24,387 nucleotides of DNA from a virus, in the IMG/VR virus record IMGVR_UViG_3300027850_000054, positions 1 to 24,387 of that record, one strand, 5' to 3'. The translations under genes were made by a program, and so were the position numbers. Under the pieces are notes generated by a model. The model did not search any database. It had not been told where the DNA came from and worked only from the letters and a program-made list of their open reading frames with translations. This document shows positions 6,526 to 19,979 of this stretch, piece after piece. Numbering within the stretch: the stretch's first letter is position 1; every line of letters starts with the position of its first letter.

Positions 6526-7359
6526 ATGCACCCAACTGACGCCGCATTACACGATCACCTATCACGCCTGCACGGTACGCTATCCGGCTTAATCGCCATC
6601 GAAGCACGCGCCATTACTATGCCGAAGCCAAGCAAGATGCCGTTAGCCGTGGCAATGACCGACGACCTTGTTCCGGTGCTTGAGGATTTGTATTGGTTCC
6701 CGTTTAGGAATGGCATTGGTGAAGCACCAGAGGACGAGGAGGAACTTAAGCCGTGGCTACAGCGCCAACTAGAGAAAGCGGTGGCGGTTGCGGCGTTGCT
6801 TGCGCTACTGCTACGCTTCCACAAGCGGGCCGTGAACTACGGCGGCACGATTGCACTAGAGTTGTTGGAGTTGGCCGGTAAGTTCAGCCTTACGAATAGC
6901 GAATATCTAGGATTGATTGACGAACGCGCAACCATGTTGGCGACTCCTTCGGCAGGCTCAGGAACCGGCGACATGAGTCTGATTGACACGACTGTCAATA
7001 ACCTGGCCATTGCCATTCCAGAGGCACGCAAAAGCAATGACGGGGTGCTAGCTGCGTTGGGCGCTTACATTGCCTATAGAGCGTTGACCCGTAGCGCCGC
7101 AATTGCCACGTTTGAAGTGCCGTGGGGCTTTGCGCAGGGCATGGGCTGGACGTACCAGAAGAACGGCGTCAAGCGCCTTATGTACGATGTAAATGGCGAA
7201 GGTTGTCCGCTGATATGCGCACCTCTGAACGGGCGCACAATGGACGCCGACAATATACCGGCTGAGTTAAGTCTGCCCAGGCATTCAAATTGTGACTGCG
7301 TGCATAGCCCTGTTTTAACTGGTTGGACAGCACCGGCAACGGTGTGGAAAGGAAAATAA
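6526..7359 (+). CDS. MuF-type minor head (head morphogenesis) protein
   Basis: A 277-residue protein. The C-terminal 50 residues carry the SPP1 gp7/Mu F signature: CPLICAPLNGRTM near residue 227, then LPRHSNCDCVHSPV about 30 residues later, matching the family pattern CPxC...L-x-G...P.H.x-C-x-C. MuF proteins are minor head proteins that bind the portal and help DNA ejection or assembly. The N-terminal 200 residues are helical. A 22-base copy of a dispersed repeat at 6945-6966 encodes an in-frame PSAGSGTG linker near residues 141-148. An AGGAG sequence 12 or so bases upstream is the likely ribosome-binding site, with ATG at 6526. Placement after the portal supports the call. Confidence 0.82.
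   Translation: MHPTDAALHDHLSRLHGTLSGLIAIEARAITMPKPSKMPLAVAMTDDLVPVLEDLYWFPFRNGIGEAPEDEEELKPWLQRQLEKAVAVAALLALLLRFHKRAVNYGGTIALELLELAGKFSLTNSEYLGLIDERATMLATPSAGSGTGDMSLIDTTVNNLAIAIPEARKSNDGVLAALGAYIAYRALTRSAAIATFEVPWGFAQGMGWTYQKNGVKRLMYDVNGEGCPLICAPLNGRTMDADNIPAELSLPRHSNCDCVHSPVLTGWTAPATVWKGK
6945..6967 (+). repeat. Dispersed ~21-base repeat, copy 1 (coding)
   Basis: The core CTTCGGCAGGCTCAG occupies 6947-6961 and is followed by GAACCG. Copies 2 (reverse, 8447-8467) and 3 (21797-21818) match it at 20 of 21 and 20 of 22 positions by eye. Here it lies in the MuF gene and is read in frame as PSAGSGT. See the findings for interpretation. Confidence 0.8.
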
Positions 7360-7833: not shown

Positions 7834-8142
7834 ATGAACACGTCACTAGATAATGGTTATGTCGGTTCTATCGATTTTATCAAGCAGGCTATGGAAAGCC
7901 GCATTGATGCTGGACGATTGCTATTGGAAGTTTCTCGCCAAATTCTTGGATACGAAATCACACTGAGTGACAGCCAGTGTATGGCGACTTTTACTTTACC
8001 ATTTGCAGATTACGAGAGTCGTCAAGATTTTAGCAGTCATGCAGATTTTATTGCTCGTCATCTCGTTGAGGATTACGCGAGAGAAAAATTTCTCATTAAG
8101 AAACAATACACGGTGGAAGAGTTGAGGAAGGTCGAAAAGTGA
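7834..8142 (+). CDS. Hypothetical protein in regulatory island
   Basis: A 102-residue protein with an AAAGGT ribosome-binding site just before ATG 7834. It has an N-terminal helix (IDFIKQAMESRIDAGRLLLE), a short beta segment (QCMATFTLPFADYESR) and a C-terminal charged helix (FIARHLVEDYAREKF). I recognise no family. The coding sequence is AT-rich compared with flanking structural genes (38% GC in 8041-8100 by hand count). Its stop overlaps the GTG start of the next gene by four bases (GTGA), so the two are probably made together, and both follow the LuxR-type gene closely. Confidence 0.55.
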   Translation: MNTSLDNGYVGSIDFIKQAMESRIDAGRLLLEVSRQILGYEITLSDSQCMATFTLPFADYESRQDFSSHADFIARHLVEDYAREKFLIKKQYTVEELRKVEK

Positions 8143-8339
8143 TAGACGGAAATAAATTGCAGGCAGCAAGAGATTTTCTTCTTAAGGAAAATGTCGTTTC
8201 ATTCGTTGATGATATGGATGCTTCATTTCCGGCACGGTTTGCCAAAGCGATGAGAGATGTGCCCAAGTGGGCACATGAGCGTAATGCTGGTGTAAGACCG
8301 GTTTTGGGAGCAAAAAAAGGGTCAGAGTCCGCCACTTAA
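8139..8339 (+). CDS. Hypothetical protein, GTG start
   Basis: A 66-residue protein beginning at GTG 8139 within the stop of the preceding gene. The chain is mixed-charge and helical: MIDGNKLQAARDFLLKENVV, then FPARFAKAMRDVPKWAHERN, and a basic C-terminus. No family is recognised. It is AT-rich (about 37% GC in 8161-8220) like the preceding gene and it ends two bases before the dyad cluster, so it may be the last gene of a three-gene accessory operon closed by the terminator at 8390. Short proteins paired with a DNA-binding protein could modulate it, but there is no direct evidence. Confidence 0.5.
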   Translation: MIDGNKLQAARDFLLKENVVSFVDDMDASFPARFAKAMRDVPKWAHERNAGVRPVLGAKKGSESAT

Positions 8340-8341
8340 AC

Positions 8342-8378
8342 ACCTACACGTTCGTGTAGCCTGCACATTTGTGTAGGT
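8342..8378. promoter_or_regulatory. Tandem 16-base dyads, operator-like or RNA-switch element
   Basis: Two related palindromes follow each other with a one-base spacer: CTACACGTTCGTGTAG at 8344-8359 (perfect) and CTGCACATTTGTGTAG at 8361-8376 (one G-T mismatch). The period is 17 bases. The outer arms ACCTACAC (8342-8349) and GTGTAGGT (8371-8378) are also complementary, so a long hairpin could compete with the two small ones in RNA. As DNA, two adjacent dyads look like a dimer-binding operator; the nearest candidate binder is the LuxR-type protein of 7612-7830. Binding is inference. Confidence 0.6.
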
Positions 8379-8389
8379 ACATATTAATC

Positions 8390-8445
8390 AGCCTAAATGA
8401 TATGTTAATTAACATATCATTTAGGCTTTTATTTTGCTTTTTTTT
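8390..8445 (+). terminator. Intrinsic terminator, 38-base perfect palindrome plus T tracts
   Basis: Bases 8390-8427 form a perfect palindrome with 19-base arms beginning AGCCTAAATGATATG and centred on TTAATTAA. It is followed by TTT, A, TTTT, GC and an eight-T run at 8438-8445. A stem of this length followed by U-rich RNA is a strong rho-independent terminator signature for plus-strand transcription. It separates the accessory island from the capsid genes. The A/T-rich stem is unusually long for a phage terminator and could also bind a protein as DNA. Confidence 0.8.
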
Positions 8446-9717: not shown

Positions 9718-10251
9718 ATGAAACAGAGATTAATTACCCTCGGCGTGTTGGTTGTCTTACTGATGTTTGCGGCGCTTATTCCGGTGGCATCGGTTCCAGC
9801 AAAAGCAGGCAACAGCAACTTCGACGCCATTGTCACTAGCGGCGATGTGACGGTTGGTGACGACTTGACGGTGGCTGATGTTGCCACCTTTGCCGCTGGC
9901 CTGACAGCCGCCGACCTGACGGCCACTGATGATGTAGTAATCGGTGATGATCTGACTGTGGCCGGCGACATGATACTGACCGCACCGGCGCGCGCATCAC
10001 TAAGCGCCACCCAGACGCTTGTGCTGGCCACTGCTAATGTACCAATCAGTAGCACGGCGTCTGCTGGGTTACTGCCAACATGTGCGGCGGGCAAAATTTT
10101 CTACATTCATAATGTCGGCACGCAGAGTATCATCATCACCGACAGCGGAACGTCCAAAATTGCTAGTACTTACACAATGGGCAATTCGGACTCAATCACA
10201 CTATTGGGCGTTGGCTCCAACTGCGTTGAACTCGCACGAGCAAATAACTAA
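9718..10251 (+). CDS. Predicted secreted beta-repeat protein inside capsid module
   Basis: A 177-residue protein starting at ATG 9718 after a strong AAGGAG site; an ATG further upstream at 9589 lies inside the protease gene and is rejected. The N-terminus is a textbook Sec signal peptide: basic n-region MKQR, a hydrophobic core LITLGVLVVLLMFAALIPVA and a likely cleavage after AKA at residue 30. The mature part begins with imperfect beta repeats (GDVTVGDDLTV, ADLTATDDVVIGDDLTV) that suggest a short beta-solenoid, then a C-terminal domain with two Cys (one in LPTCAAGK, one in GSNCVEL). It may be exported to the cell surface or, if not cleaved, be membrane-anchored. A virion decoration role is also possible from position. 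I do not recognise a family. Confidence 0.7.
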   Translation: MKQRLITLGVLVVLLMFAALIPVASVPAKAGNSNFDAIVTSGDVTVGDDLTVADVATFAAGLTAADLTATDDVVIGDDLTVAGDMILTAPARASLSATQTLVLATANVPISSTASAGLLPTCAAGKIFYIHNVGTQSIIITDSGTSKIASTYTMGNSDSITLLGVGSNCVELARANN

Positions 10252-15081: not shown

Positions 15082-15348
15082 ATGGTAACAGAAATTACGA
15101 TTACGCCGCCGGATAAATCGAAACCGGGCTATCTAAAGCGCCGCAAGGAAGGCATGAAGATCACCAAGCGGCTGACGGACGGTGACGACACCGCCATTGA
15201 TGATCTGGTTGACTTTGTGCTTAAAAATGCCACGGTCACAGGACCAGAAGGCGCTGACTTGCACGAAGCAATTATGGAGATGAGCCAAGAGGAATTTGAG
15301 TCCGTCTTCAATCCACCCGATGCAGTAAAACCTACGAACGGCGGCTAA
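15082..15348 (+). CDS. Tail assembly chaperone, first frame (gpG-like)
   Basis: An 88-residue acidic protein. It has a short beta start (MVTEITITPPDKSKPGYLKR), then an ARM-like helical core (TKRLTDGDDTAIDDLVDFVL, LHEAIMEMSQEEFESVF) and ends PPDAVKPTNGG. Length and helical content match the first-frame chaperone, gpG in lambda, that coats the tape measure before tube polymerisation. Immediately beyond its stop an open -1 frame continues the typical second part, so a longer fusion form is expected. It lies between tail tube and tape measure, the standard place. Confidence 0.8.
   Translation: MVTEITITPPDKSKPGYLKRRKEGMKITKRLTDGDDTAIDDLVDFVLKNATVTGPEGADLHEAIMEMSQEEFESVFNPPDAVKPTNGG
15326..15332 (+). 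promoter_or_regulatory. Candidate -1 ribosomal slippage site
   Basis: The zero-frame codons here are GTA AAA CCT. The run AAAA (15327-15330) lets a tRNA on AAA re-pair on AAA one base back. The -1 frame is open only from 15300 and has no ATG, so a slip must happen between 15300 and the zero-frame stop at 15346; this is the best site in that interval. It is not a canonical X-XXY-YYZ heptamer, since the A-site CCT would re-pair poorly on ACC. Confidence 0.5.
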
Positions 15349-15563
15349 TTCGGGACTGGCTGAGAAGCAAATCAGACCAGGTTCCCGAATGGTTGCCAGT
15401 TTTGTTGGTGGCAGAAAAGTGGCATGTGCCGCCGTGGGTTGTAGAGAATGACGCAACCCAAGAATGGTGGGACAGGTACGCCGCCTATAGCGAAGAGCTT
15501 GCCACGTTTGAGAAGAAGCGCCGCAAGAAAAAGGGCGACAACCTGACTACTAAAACGGATTGA
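15327..15563 (+). CDS. Tail assembly chaperone, second frame (gpT-like), reached by -1 frameshift
   Basis: The -1 frame relative to the preceding gene is open from 15300 to a TGA at 15561-15563. From the slip site it encodes about 77 residues, beginning TYERRLIRDWLRSKSDQVPE and containing VAEKWHVPPWVVENDATQEW, then a charged C-terminus with KKRRKKKGD. The E-K-W/Y-x-V/C-P-P-W segment is what I know from second-frame chaperones, which recruit tail-tube subunits. No ATG or convincing GTG/TTG with a ribosome-binding site exists, so the protein is most likely made only as a fusion of about 160 residues. The last 14 bases overlap the end of the minus-strand gene. Confidence 0.75.
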   Translation, partial: KTYERRLIRDWLRSKSDQVPEWLPVLLVAEKWHVPPWVVENDATQEWWDRYAAYSEELATFEKKRRKKKGDNLTTKTD

Positions 15564-16020
15564 CGCCATAGGGTGCAGCGTAGTCGATGAGGCGCAGGCG
15601 GGCATTGTTGATTGCATCAAAACAACTAGATCGCTCAGTGAGGAATGGTATCAAATCGAAAGCCGTAGCATTCTCGATCCTCTTGACACTTTCGGCTATA
15701 CCGGCCAGAGTCCCACAGCGAATTGCTGCGAATCGCAATTGAACGTGCAGGGCAAGCAGCGTAATTGGCGGCTCTTTCGCATCAATCGCCGTGACCATTG
15801 TGGTTAAGTTTTCATGTGCCGCAATAACACTGTCTAGCTTGTTTTTTCCAGACAAGAATCCGTTTGCGACATCGGCAAAATCGATAAGTGTATTTACTCG
15901 ATTACTAGCCAAATTCACATAGGCAAGGTTAGCGACCGGCATTGATTGAGCGGATGACGGTACAACCAACATCGCAGCCACGACAAAACCGGCGATAAAC
16001 ATCAGTGCAGAACGCAACAT
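15550..16020 (-). CDS. Predicted secreted protein, inverted accessory (moron-like) gene
   Basis: A 156-residue protein, the only well-supported minus-strand gene here. A strong TGGAGG ribosome-binding site lies four bases before its ATG (complement of 16018-16020). The N-terminus is a clear Sec signal peptide: MLRS, hydrophobic ALMFIAGFVVAAMLVVP, likely cut after SSA at residue 24. The mature part is mostly helical (LASNRVNTLIDFADVANGFL, LHVQLRFAAIRCGTLAG) with two Cys, C102 and C133, able to form a disulfide after export. I recognise no family and no catalytic motif. It interrupts the tail chaperone/tape measure order and has its own candidate promoter, like morons that alter the host surface or block superinfection; that role is inference. 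Confidence 0.75.
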   Translation of the reverse strand: MLRSALMFIAGFVVAAMLVVPSSAQSMPVANLAYVNLASNRVNTLIDFADVANGFLSGKNKLDSVIAAHENLTTMVTAIDAKEPPITLLALHVQLRFAAIRCGTLAGIAESVKRIENATAFDLIPFLTERSSCFDAINNARLRLIDYAAPYGVNPF

Positions 16021-16061
16021 AAAGCCTCCATTGTGTAGAAAATCGAATAAACCAGGGCTTT

Positions 16062-16070
16062 ATTATCGCA
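16062..16070 (-). promoter_or_regulatory. Candidate extended -10 promoter for minus-strand gene
   Basis: The minus strand reads TGCGATAAT here, a TGn extended -10 plus GATAAT (five of six against TATAAT). No good -35 box is present 17 bases upstream. Transcription would begin near 16055 and give a leader of roughly 35 bases containing the TGGAGG site. An inverted repeat, ATAAAGCC at 16019-16026 and GGCTTTAT at 16056-16063, brackets this leader. Confidence 0.4.
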
Positions 16071-16121
16071 CATAAGTTTGGGTTCCGCCACTTACCTTTT
16101 GCTTACTTCTTAATGTGAGAT

Positions 16122-19100
16122 ATGCCAGATTACAAACTAAGAATTATTGTCAATGGCGAAGATCGAGCCTCCCAGACATTCAAAAACATTGGTTCCTCGC
16201 TTGATGACTTCGGCAGCAAGGTCAAGGGCATTGGCGCCGGCCTATCTGTTGGCTTGACGGCTCCGCTCGTTGCGCTGGGTGCGGCAGCGTTTAAGGCTGG
16301 CACTGAACTAAATGCGGGCATGGCAAATGTGGCATCGCTGGGCGTTGCGTCAGATCGCGTACTGGAACTAAGAACCGATGTGCAAAACCTGGCAATTGGC
16401 GTGGCTAAGGATACGTCTGACATTGCCGGTGGCCTGTATCAAGTTATTTCCACTTTTGGCGACACCGCCGACACTGTAAAAATCCTCGAAATCAGCGCTC
16501 GCGCCGCCACCGCCGGTATAGCAACCACGTCTGATGCCATCTTGCTCGGTGGCGCTGTCACAAAAGCTTACGGCGACACCTCCGCTGCAGCTTACCAGCA
16601 CGTACAAGATTTGGCCTTTCAAACCGTTAAATTAGGCGTTACCACATTCCCCGAATTAGCCGCCAGTATGGGTAAGGTTATCCCGCTAACGGCGGCGCTA
16701 GGCGTTTCACAAGAGGAGACCTTTGCCGTAATGGCAACCGCTACCGGTATCACGGGTGGCGCAGCCGAGGTTACGACACAATTGCGCGGCATCATGCAAT
16801 CGCTGATGGACCCCACGGCAAAAACCACAGAACTATTCAAAGCGATGGGGATTGAATCCGGCAAGGTAGCGATTGAGCAACTAGGGCTACAAGGCACGAT
16901 AGAGCTACTTGTCAAGGCGGCGGAAGCTTCCGGCTTACCTTTGTCCGATTTCATCGGCTCTATTGAAGGTCAAACACTGGCCATGCAGTTGGCTGGCGGT
17001 TCACAAGAGCAGTACACAAAAAACATTGCCGCAATGGGCAAAGCAGCCGGCGCTAGCGATGCTGCATTCAAGGCACAAACAGAAGGCGTCAACGGTCTTG
17101 GTTTTGACCTCCAACAGGCTGGCATTAAGTTCAAGGTCTTCCTGCAAAACATCAACGATGCTATGGGACCGGCATTACTTCTAGTCGCTGACTTCCTCAC
17201 TCCGATAGGCGACAAGTTGTCATCATTGGCGCTTAGATTCAAAGAGATGGACCCGACTACCCAGAAGTGGATCGTTGGCCTTGCCGCCGCCGCCGCCGCA
17301 CTTGGGCCGGTATTGATTGCGGTAGGTGCAATGATTCCGGTGCTTGGCACACTAGCGACAGTGATTGGTGCATTGAAAAGCCCACTTGGTTTGGTGGCCG
17401 CGGGTATTGCCGCTGCATTCGTGTTCGACATTGGTGGCATTCGCACAAAATTTACGGAGTTGGTTAGCTGGATTAAAGGCAAGATACCAGCGGCACTTAC
17501 CACGTTGCAGGGCTTATGGGCGACTGGTTGGGCGGCACTTCCGGCAGCGCTGATTGCGGCTGACGCTGCGATTGCGCCAGTTATTGAAAATATCAATGCA
17601 GTTCTAGGGCAGATAGGTACTTTCTTCGCGCCAATTATTGATCGACTTGTGACAAGCATTAGTGGTTTTTCCATAGAGCTGCAAGGTATGGGTGACCACT
17701 TCGCTGAACTAAGTGCGGCCGCGGCGCCGCTGATCCCGATGTTTGGCGCGCTGGCGTTAGCTATCGGCGTTGGTTTGGGTTTAGTGGCGTTGACGGCAAT
17801 CAATCTATTGTCGGCCACATTTGACAACTTAGGTGCGGTAATCAAGATTGCGATTGACCAAGCCACTTTAATCCTAAACACATTCACAACGGTTGTCAGT
17901 GAGTTAGTGACAGGTGTTACCGCTCTAATCAACGGCGATTGGGCAACCGCTTGGACATCAGCACAGACTATTGCCAAAACATTCGGTACATTTTTCAGAC
18001 TATCACTTTCTAACCTGTTGTCATTTATTTCAGTTACCTTTGCGACCATCGGCACAACCATTAGCACAACATTAGCCGATTTGGGATTTACGGCCGTGGC
18101 CGCACAGGTGCAAACCGCCACTGACAAGGTGACAGCATTTGTGGATTGGCTCTCAAAGATTGTTAGCGGTGATATTTCTTTGAATCTCCAAACGCCGGCA
18201 TGGATTACCGACTTGATTGCGTGGGCATGGCCTACACTAGAATCCGTTTCGTGGGTAACAGATTTGACGGCATGGACGTGGCCAGTATTAGCCATATCTG
18301 ATTGGATTGTCACGTTGATGAGTTGGGTTTGGCCAACACTCGTGCCAATAGATTGGATTGTTACGCTTTTGACGTGGCAATGGCCTGGATTACCAGCTTC
18401 ACCGGCGTGGTTATCGTCTCTGCTCAATTTTCGTTGGCCTGCAATGCCAAGCGCTCCGGCTTGGTTGTCGTCGCTAATGGGTGGTGGCTCCACTTACGCC
18501 AGTGGTGGCAGCATTGGCGGACAATCAACCGGTACGCCATCATTCGGCGGCGGATGGACATGGGTCGGCGAACGGGGGCCGGAATTACTCAACCTCCCGC
18601 GCGGCTCACAAGTGCTATCCAACCAACAGTCGATGGGCATGATTGGTCAATTAGCCGGTGGAACAGGTGGACTAAACGCAGGTCAACAGGCTGGCTTTAA
18701 TGCTTTCGTGGCATCGCAGGGGCAGAAGGAAGCCGACAAAGCCGCCAAAGAGCTAAAGAAATCTGTCGATAAAATGGGCAAAACCATCGACAAATCAATC
18801 GATGACATGGCGCAAAAGCTCGGTAGTATCTTACAGAGTATCCCTGGCCTGTTCGGTACATCTTCCGTCACCGCTGACCAAATGAAGATGGGCGCGCTGG
18901 GCGTGCCACAGGATTTTGCCGACGATTACCTGAGACGACTAACCGACGAAGTTGTCAACGGCGTCGATTGGGCAAATGTGGACATCGCCGACGCCGCCGC
19001 ACGCGCTGGCATTGACCCGTCATTGCCACATGAAGCCATTTTGGAGATGTTCAAGGCGGCTTGGGGCGATAGTAGCCTATTCGCTAATGCCGCCAATCTA

Positions 19101-19979
19101 GACCTAATTAATCAAGATGCGGTGCAACAGGGCATCGACAAAGCTAATGCTCAAGCCGCCGGTAAAGCCAACATTATGGCGCTGTTTGGCATTGCGCCCG
19201 ACGAGGCGACGGCGCAGGCGGTGACGCTTGGAGCGTCGCTCCACACCGGCATTGCTCAAGGCATGACAGCGGGCGCAGGCGGCACAGGGCTAGGCACAAC
19301 GCTTGTATCGGGCATGGCAGGCGACATCACGCCGGAGAGCATGGCTCCCGTTGCGTCGGCCATTGCCAGTGGTTTGACGACCAATCTGTCCGGCGAGGAC
19401 GTGGCGTTTGGCACGGCGCTCGAAGGCGTAATCAATAAGCAACTAGAGGGTGAAGGCCTATTTAGTGGCACGGCGGGCATGATTCTTAAAAAGATTGCCG
19501 GTTACTTCACTGATCAGGAATTCGGCGTAGACCTGGTGGGAAACTTTGCCTCGATTTGGGTAACGCAGTTGGGCATACAAAGCGCCATTGACCATCTGTT
19601 GGATGTTGGGAGCCGCATTGCCGAAATCGTGTTCAAGGGGTTTCAAGCTAAATCAGATGAACTAGATTGGACCGGCGCTGTAAATGCCGCAGCTATTGGT
19701 GGACCAATTGCTGCGGCTACTACCATACCAGGCAACGCAAGCGGTACGAACTTCTGGAAGGGAGGTTTGACATGGGTTGGCGAACAAGGGGCAGAGTTAG
19801 TTAGGTTGCCGAGAGGTAGTGAGATTATGTCCAATCAGCGCAGTAGTGAGTACGTGAGCGACCGGTTAGATCGAGAAGTCACAGTTATTAACAATAACTT
19901 TTATAACACGATTACCAACCAAATCGATATTAATAAACTAGCCTACCAAGTGGCTGCGATTCAATCGAGGCGGCGCTAA
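16122..19979 (+). CDS. Tail tape measure protein
   Basis: A 1285-residue protein, the largest in the window. Residues about 1-60 hold a TMP start (YKLRIIVNGEDRASQTFKNI) and residues 80-300 a PhageMin_Tail-type domain (MANVASLGVASDRVLELRT, GVSQEETFAVMATATGITGG). Long hydrophobic segments lie near residues 383-440, 532-566 and 620-650; these may insert in the host membrane during DNA entry. A tryptophan-rich repeat block covers residues 694-785. Two copies of the W-V-G-E-x-G-x-E-L-x-x-L-P-R-G-S motif sit near residues 814 and 1218. By the usual rule of about 0.15 nm per residue the tail would be near 190 nm. The gene starts at ATG 16122 with a weak ribosome-binding site and ends in a TAATG junction. 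Confidence 0.92.
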   Translation: MPDYKLRIIVNGEDRASQTFKNIGSSLDDFGSKVKGIGAGLSVGLTAPLVALGAAAFKAGTELNAGMANVASLGVASDRVLELRTDVQNLAIGVAKDTSDIAGGLYQVISTFGDTADTVKILEISARAATAGIATTSDAILLGGAVTKAYGDTSAAAYQHVQDLAFQTVKLGVTTFPELAASMGKVIPLTAALGVSQEETFAVMATATGITGGAAEVTTQLRGIMQSLMDPTAKTTELFKAMGIESGKVAIEQLGLQGTIELLVKAAEASGLPLSDFIGSIEGQTLAMQLAGGSQEQYTKNIAAMGKAAGASDAAFKAQTEGVNGLGFDLQQAGIKFKVFLQNINDAMGPALLLVADFLTPIGDKLSSLALRFKEMDPTTQKWIVGLAAAAAALGPVLIAVGAMIPVLGTLATVIGALKSPLGLVAAGIAAAFVFDIGGIRTKFTELVSWIKGKIPAALTTLQGLWATGWAALPAALIAADAAIAPVIENINAVLGQIGTFFAPIIDRLVTSISGFSIELQGMGDHFAELSAAAAPLIPMFGALALAIGVGLGLVALTAINLLSATFDNLGAVIKIAIDQATLILNTFTTVVSELVTGVTALINGDWATAWTSAQTIAKTFGTFFRLSLSNLLSFISVTFATIGTTISTTLADLGFTAVAAQVQTATDKVTAFVDWLSKIVSGDISLNLQTPAWITDLIAWAWPTLESVSWVTDLTAWTWPVLAISDWIVTLMSWVWPTLVPIDWIVTLLTWQWPGLPASPAWLSSLLNFRWPAMPSAPAWLSSLMGGGSTYASGGSIGGQSTGTPSFGGGWTWVGERGPELLNLPRGSQVLSNQQSMGMIGQLAGGTGGLNAGQQAGFNAFVASQGQKEADKAAKELKKSVDKMGKTIDKSIDDMAQKLGSILQSIPGLFGTSSVTADQMKMGALGVPQDFADDYLRRLTDEVVNGVDWANVDIADAAARAGIDPSLPHEAILEMFKAAWGDSSLFANAANLDLINQDAVQQGIDKANAQAAGKANIMALFGIAPDEATAQAVTLGASLHTGIAQGMTAGAGGTGLGTTLVSGMAGDITPESMAPVASAIASGLTTNLSGEDVAFGTALEGVINKQLEGEGLFSGTAGMILKKIAGYFTDQEFGVDLVGNFASIWVTQLGIQSAIDHLLDVGSRIAEIVFKGFQAKSDELDWTGAVNAAAIGGPIAAATTIPGNASGTNFWKGGLTWVGEQGAELVRLPRGSEIMSNQRSSEYVSDRLDREVTVINNNFYNTITNQIDINKLAYQVAAIQSRRR
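18201..18479 (+). repeat. Tryptophan-rich 17/18-residue repeats in tape measure
   Basis: Six tandem units begin at W694, W711, W728, W745, W763 and W781 of the tape measure protein, with spacings 17, 17, 17, 18 and 18. A full unit reads like WITDLIAWAWPTLESVS or WIVTLMSWVWPTLVPID: W-[IV]-x-x-L-x-x-W-x-W-P-x-L. The fifth unit has F-R-W-P and the sixth is cut to WLSSLMGGG. The DNA copies are diverged, so the repeat is old and kept at protein level. Confidence 0.88.

Follow-up and report, generated by a model that had tools for sequence, protein, structure and literature searches.

Between the tail assembly chaperone gene and the tape measure gene of an uncultured virus of bacteria, we find an inverted gene, which we call P0001, for a protein predicted to be exported. 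The window (the whole stretch of DNA that was analysed) is a virus record 24,387 bases long, the plus strand of which carries the head and tail operon of a siphovirus. To judge from sequence comparison, P0001 is very probably cargo of a variable slot, and its description as moron-like cargo is well supported. For the whole, the explanation we lean towards is that of an accessory gene with its own promoter, the product of which would be exported and would block the entry of a second phage's DNA.

Position and coding evidence

PHROG matches in the window identify terminase, portal, major capsid protein, tail tube and tape measure. The features around P0001 are the following.

15082..15348, plus strand: tail assembly chaperone frame 1 (G-like), after the tail tube, with 62.5% identity to the related phage L015
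15330..15563, plus strand: chaperone extension in the -1 frame (GT-like), with 77% identity and the same slip site in L015
15550..16020, minus strand: ORF P0001, 156 aa, ATG start, predicted exported helical protein, with a codon score within the gene range
16122..19979, plus strand: tail tape measure protein, 1285 aa (PHROG_991 E 2.3e-58; PF10145 E 1.8e-20)

The upstream neighbour of P0001 is a -1 frameshifted G/GT-type chaperone that ends at 15563. Its -1 frame is open over 15300-15563, with a probable slip A_AAA_C at 15327-15331, and both the slip site and the GT-like extension are conserved in L015 (IMGVR_UViG_3300043411_001126). Because the -1 frame stays open to 15563, P0001 and the chaperone share 14 nt, tail to tail; P0001 points away from the tape measure gene. 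It takes up the sole gap that the frameshifted chaperone and the tape measure gene (16122) leave between them. On the plus strand this gap (15564-16121) is filled by no ORF of 60 aa or more, and over P0001 the three plus frames contain 4, 6 and 14 stops. The preliminary description had proposed a minus-strand gene spanning 15550-16121 between chaperone and tape measure. The coordinates and the PHROG and PF10145 matches confirm this arrangement, and the boundary at 15550 and the strand stand, but the ORF ends at 16020 and the rest of that span includes the candidate promoter region.

The length of the ORF is weak proof of coding, since spurious minus-strand ORFs antisense to real genes reach 507 aa in the window. 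We scored ORFs by codon usage, with a model that had been trained on 23 trusted genes of the window, each gene being left out in turn for its own scoring. P0001 scores 0.102 bits per codon, near the bottom of the range of the trusted genes (0.091-0.371, n=23) and above every other minus-strand ORF of at least 80 aa (0.075 or less, n=27). An earlier concern that codon statistics might look non-coding is thus answered by a gene-like score. The position-specific GC of P0001 dips at codon position 2, as in genes, and the GC of the slot is 0.47 vs 0.525 for the window. P0001 is almost certainly a real gene.

Two other features of the operon deserve mention. At 8390-8427, a hairpin with a perfectly paired stem of 17 bp and T runs after it (z -6.7) is a strong terminator located between 8139-8339 and the protease-like gene (8478). 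A plus-strand gene at 9718-10251, placed between the protease-like gene and the gene preceding the capsid gene, has a signal-peptide-like N-terminus (MKQRLITLGVLVVLLMFAALIPVASVPAKAG). It has homologs in L015 and in three other phages described below (L008, L010 and L012), and the L012 copy also starts signal-like; from these sequences, an exported protein seems to be conserved inside the head module.

Expression signals

16025..16030, minus strand: ribosome-binding site TGGAGG in the sequence, 4 nt from GGAGG to the ATG
16062..16070, minus strand: candidate extended -10 promoter TGCGATAAT, about 41 nt 5' of the ATG

The strong TGGAGG site that had been noticed before is found at 16030-16025. 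Extended -10 matches like TGCGATAAT occur only four times on both strands of the window, the P0001 site included. The candidate promoter has no good -35, which is why a two-hexamer scan does not list it, and since the motif type was picked after seeing the site, we take it as support and not as proof. Consensus scans and folding find no terminator near the P0001 stop, in agreement with what had been reported. In its minus-strand orientation, P0001 would be antisense to late transcription. A reading of the region as a source of RNA finds no support, as Rfam gives no match there.

Predicted export, fold and homologs of the product

15949..16020, minus strand: predicted signal peptide, residues 1-24 (MLRSALMFIAGFVVAAMLVVPSSA, followed by QS), with a hydrophobic core and an S-x-A cleavage motif
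15553..15948, minus strand: mature part, 132 aa, predicted four-helix bundle (AlphaFold2 from single sequence, low confidence)

The N-terminus of P0001 presents the features of a Sec/SPase I substrate: a basic residue (R3), a hydrophobic core (19-residue mean hydropathy of 2.29) and small residues at -3/-1 (S22-S23-A24, then Q25). This hydrophobic core is the strongest among all window ORFs of at least 60 aa and, together with the SSA24 motif before QS, it agrees with the signal peptide that had been proposed. On these features the product is predicted, with good confidence, to be exported. For the mature protein, the single-sequence AlphaFold2 model has four helices with a mean pLDDT of 65.9. 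This low-confidence model fits the earlier picture of a helical protein with two cysteines, which are C102 and C132. Foldseek finds no meaningful fold match for the P0001 models; the hits that it returns (14-3-3 and others) have E > 0.2 with low-confidence models, and we dismissed them.

We find no homolog of P0001 beyond the same phage in IMG/VR, in phage and plasmid records or among PDB sequences, and no family in Pfam, PHROGs, NCBIfam or PADLOC, so the preliminary statement that no family was known for it holds throughout these collections. Weak Pfam and PDB matches, AvrPto among them, fall far below the cut-offs and were dismissed. A search of phage records for homologs in the same slot, as had been suggested, gives only an identical copy. 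This sole other copy lies in a contig 100% identical to the window over 17 kb, which is the same phage and therefore does not count as independent evidence. By these searches P0001 is an orphan, without membership in a known family.

Content of the slot in related phages

15541..16118, no strand: variable slot; DNA homology to L015 breaks at 15540 and restarts at 16119

The window and L015 have in common the region from the prohead-protease-like gene through the start of the tape measure gene, with identities of 90% for the tail tube, 89-91% for two adjoining tail proteins and 76% for the tape measure N-terminus; the DNA of the tail block is about 76% identical. In L015 the slot lacks P0001; it contains an ORF of 66 aa, a hairpin, a ribbon-helix-helix (RHH) gene of the Arc/HicB-like kind and a strong terminator (z -5.7). 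The coding signal of these ORFs is weak, and the RHH gene rests on a Pfam match. Unlike P0001, the L015 cargo has two hairpin terminators. L015, the closest relative, thus has both flanks with other cargo between them, which is the absence from the same locus in close relatives by which a moron is recognised. As a separate observation, just 5' of the L015 tape measure gene (7225-7335, plus strand) there is a promoter-like TAGACA-17-TATACT with a strong terminator about 60 nt later, a pair that could make a short RNA.

A sister lineage, with capsid proteins about 56-64% identical, has a different tail module. In L008, L039, L037 and L040 the order is chaperone, gp10-like gene and tape measure, and cargo is absent as far as the contigs reach (those of L037 and L040 include only the end of the chaperone). 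Two other sister phages do carry cargo.

L010, 14606-15841, plus strand: N6/N4 DNA methylase, inserted precisely where the gp10-like gene has its overlapping start codon
L012, 6192-6416, minus strand: 74-aa membrane-protein ORF, directly 5' of the tape measure gene

The methylase of L010 is absent from L008, while the adjoining tail proteins of the two are 93-98% identical. The L012 ORF has an AAAGG ribosome site, a strong membrane helix followed by a coil and a gene-like codon score (0.225); L011 and L013 are identical to L012 across the 10-11 kb that they share with it. From its sequence, the L012 product is a candidate exclusion protein itself. The distant tape measure relatives L029-L032 were read as well, but they are too remote to inform the slot.

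Because the cargo varies across relatives, we regard the stretch before the tape measure gene as a recurrent cargo site, and P0001 as cargo and not as part of the tail machinery. Taken together, P0001 and the L012 ORF place inverted envelope genes in this slot at least two times. The suggestion of a moron-like gene is upheld by the different cargo in L015, by the sister phages with none or with other cargo, and by the precedent of HK97 gp15.

Lifestyle and host

The 64-kb record of L008 has a 127-bp terminal repeat and so is probably complete. A Pfam search finds no tyrosine integrase or serine recombinase in ten records, namely the window and nine relatives, which are mostly fragments but include the apparently complete L008. 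The lysogen setting in which the gene had been placed gains nothing from these records: as no integrase is found in the relatives, there is no support for a role in lysogens such as a classic moron has. Scans of bacterial and archaeal genomes, with the tape measure protein and with the capsid alignment as queries, find no prophage relatives. L008, together with L018-L020, encodes an HTH repressor-like protein, an FtsK/SpoIIIE-like protein and a TnpB-like transposase. In view of the first two, these phages may have a plasmid-like prophage state. Exclusion may also act during lytic growth.

Proposed role and alternatives

In the explanation that we lean towards, P0001 would be a moron-like accessory gene in the variable chaperone/tape measure slot of a siphovirus, read from its own candidate promoter on the opposite strand. 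With such a promoter, it would be made apart from, and probably before, the late tail operon. The product would be exported via Sec, and the signal peptide would most likely be cut after residue 24. This would leave a small helical protein in the envelope, with a C102-C132 disulfide possibly locking the mature form. Its most likely task during infection would be to block the DNA entry of a second phage at the envelope, perhaps through contact with the tape measure protein of that phage or with an entry factor of the host, as gp15 and Ltp presumably do. Of the parts of this explanation, action in the envelope is likely. Action in superinfection exclusion we propose tentatively, by analogy, on the basis of the slot position and the predicted export.

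The strongest alternative, which we hold somewhat doubtful, is that P0001 is an exported accessory protein with another envelope role (stress protection, remodelling or fitness cargo) that leaves other phages unaffected. The slot carries cargo of several kinds (a methylase, an RHH regulator and a membrane protein) and so does not prescribe exclusion, and P0001 has no PADLOC match. Against this other role, the closest functional precedent in the slot, HK97 gp15, is an exclusion protein. It is improbable that P0001 is a virion or lysis protein (a SAR-type or periplasmic lysis factor) inverted by chance. Lysis factors are common among small exported helical phage proteins, but lysis genes normally lie on the late-transcribed strand, P0001 has no lysis family match in Pfam, PHROG or NCBIfam, and it is missing from the slot of L015, which has the same module. 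Least probable is a non-coding P0001 ORF in a spacer or a source of antisense RNA; no homolog is known and long spurious minus-strand ORFs do occur in the GC-balanced DNA of the window, but this is the sole long open frame in the gap, it scores above the 27 spurious minus-strand ORFs, the ribosome site, signal peptide and promoter motif are all in register with it, and Rfam has no match.

Taken as slot cargo, P0001 adds a new predicted exported-protein family to those known between chaperone and tape measure, and inspecting the gap 5' of the tape measure gene becomes a cheap rule to find candidate exclusion proteins. A bolder reading, which we consider unlikely, is that in these phages the stretch preceding the tape measure gene serves as a dedicated docking site for envelope proteins that block entry by tails similar to those of the phage itself, the genes being inverted so that the proteins are made early and separately from the late operon. 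If so, each slot protein would be matched to the tape measure types that it recognises.

Comparison with known systems

In the coliphage HK97 (NC_002167), gp15 lies between a -1 frameshifted chaperone and the tape measure gene; its annotation is that of a moron product, and a terminator follows it. P0001 resembles gp15 (8203-8391) in being accessory, in occupying the same slot and in encoding a small envelope-targeted protein, which for P0001 means predicted export. They differ in that gp15 has 62 aa, the plus strand, one membrane helix with a coil and a terminator, whereas P0001 has 156 aa, the minus strand and a cleavable-looking signal; we find no local alignment between the two at E up to 100. 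In orientation, P0001 is closer to the HK97 "reverse moron" gp23 (NC_002167 14715-14975), also a minus-strand accessory gene in a plus-strand tail operon, although gp23 is located before the J gene and has an annotated terminator.

HK97 gp15 and TP-J34 Ltp reportedly both prevent the injection of DNA, a block that is overcome by changes in the tail tube or tape measure genes (PMC10883804). Ltp is exported, as P0001 is predicted to be, and its reported target is the tape measure protein of the incoming phage (PMC10883804, PMC3952083). Ltp is a lipoprotein, whereas P0001, the first cysteine of which is residue 102, has no lipobox. The L012 ORF, which comes from a related phage, is like P0001 an inverted envelope-protein gene ahead of the tape measure gene, but differs from it in layout, which is the helix and coil of HK97 gp15; between the L012 ORF and gp15 we detect no homology. 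P0001 occupies the place of gp15 and, by analogy, may work like it. With inverted envelope genes found twice in the slot, in P0001 and in L012, the gp15 arrangement of HK97 may belong to a more general pattern.
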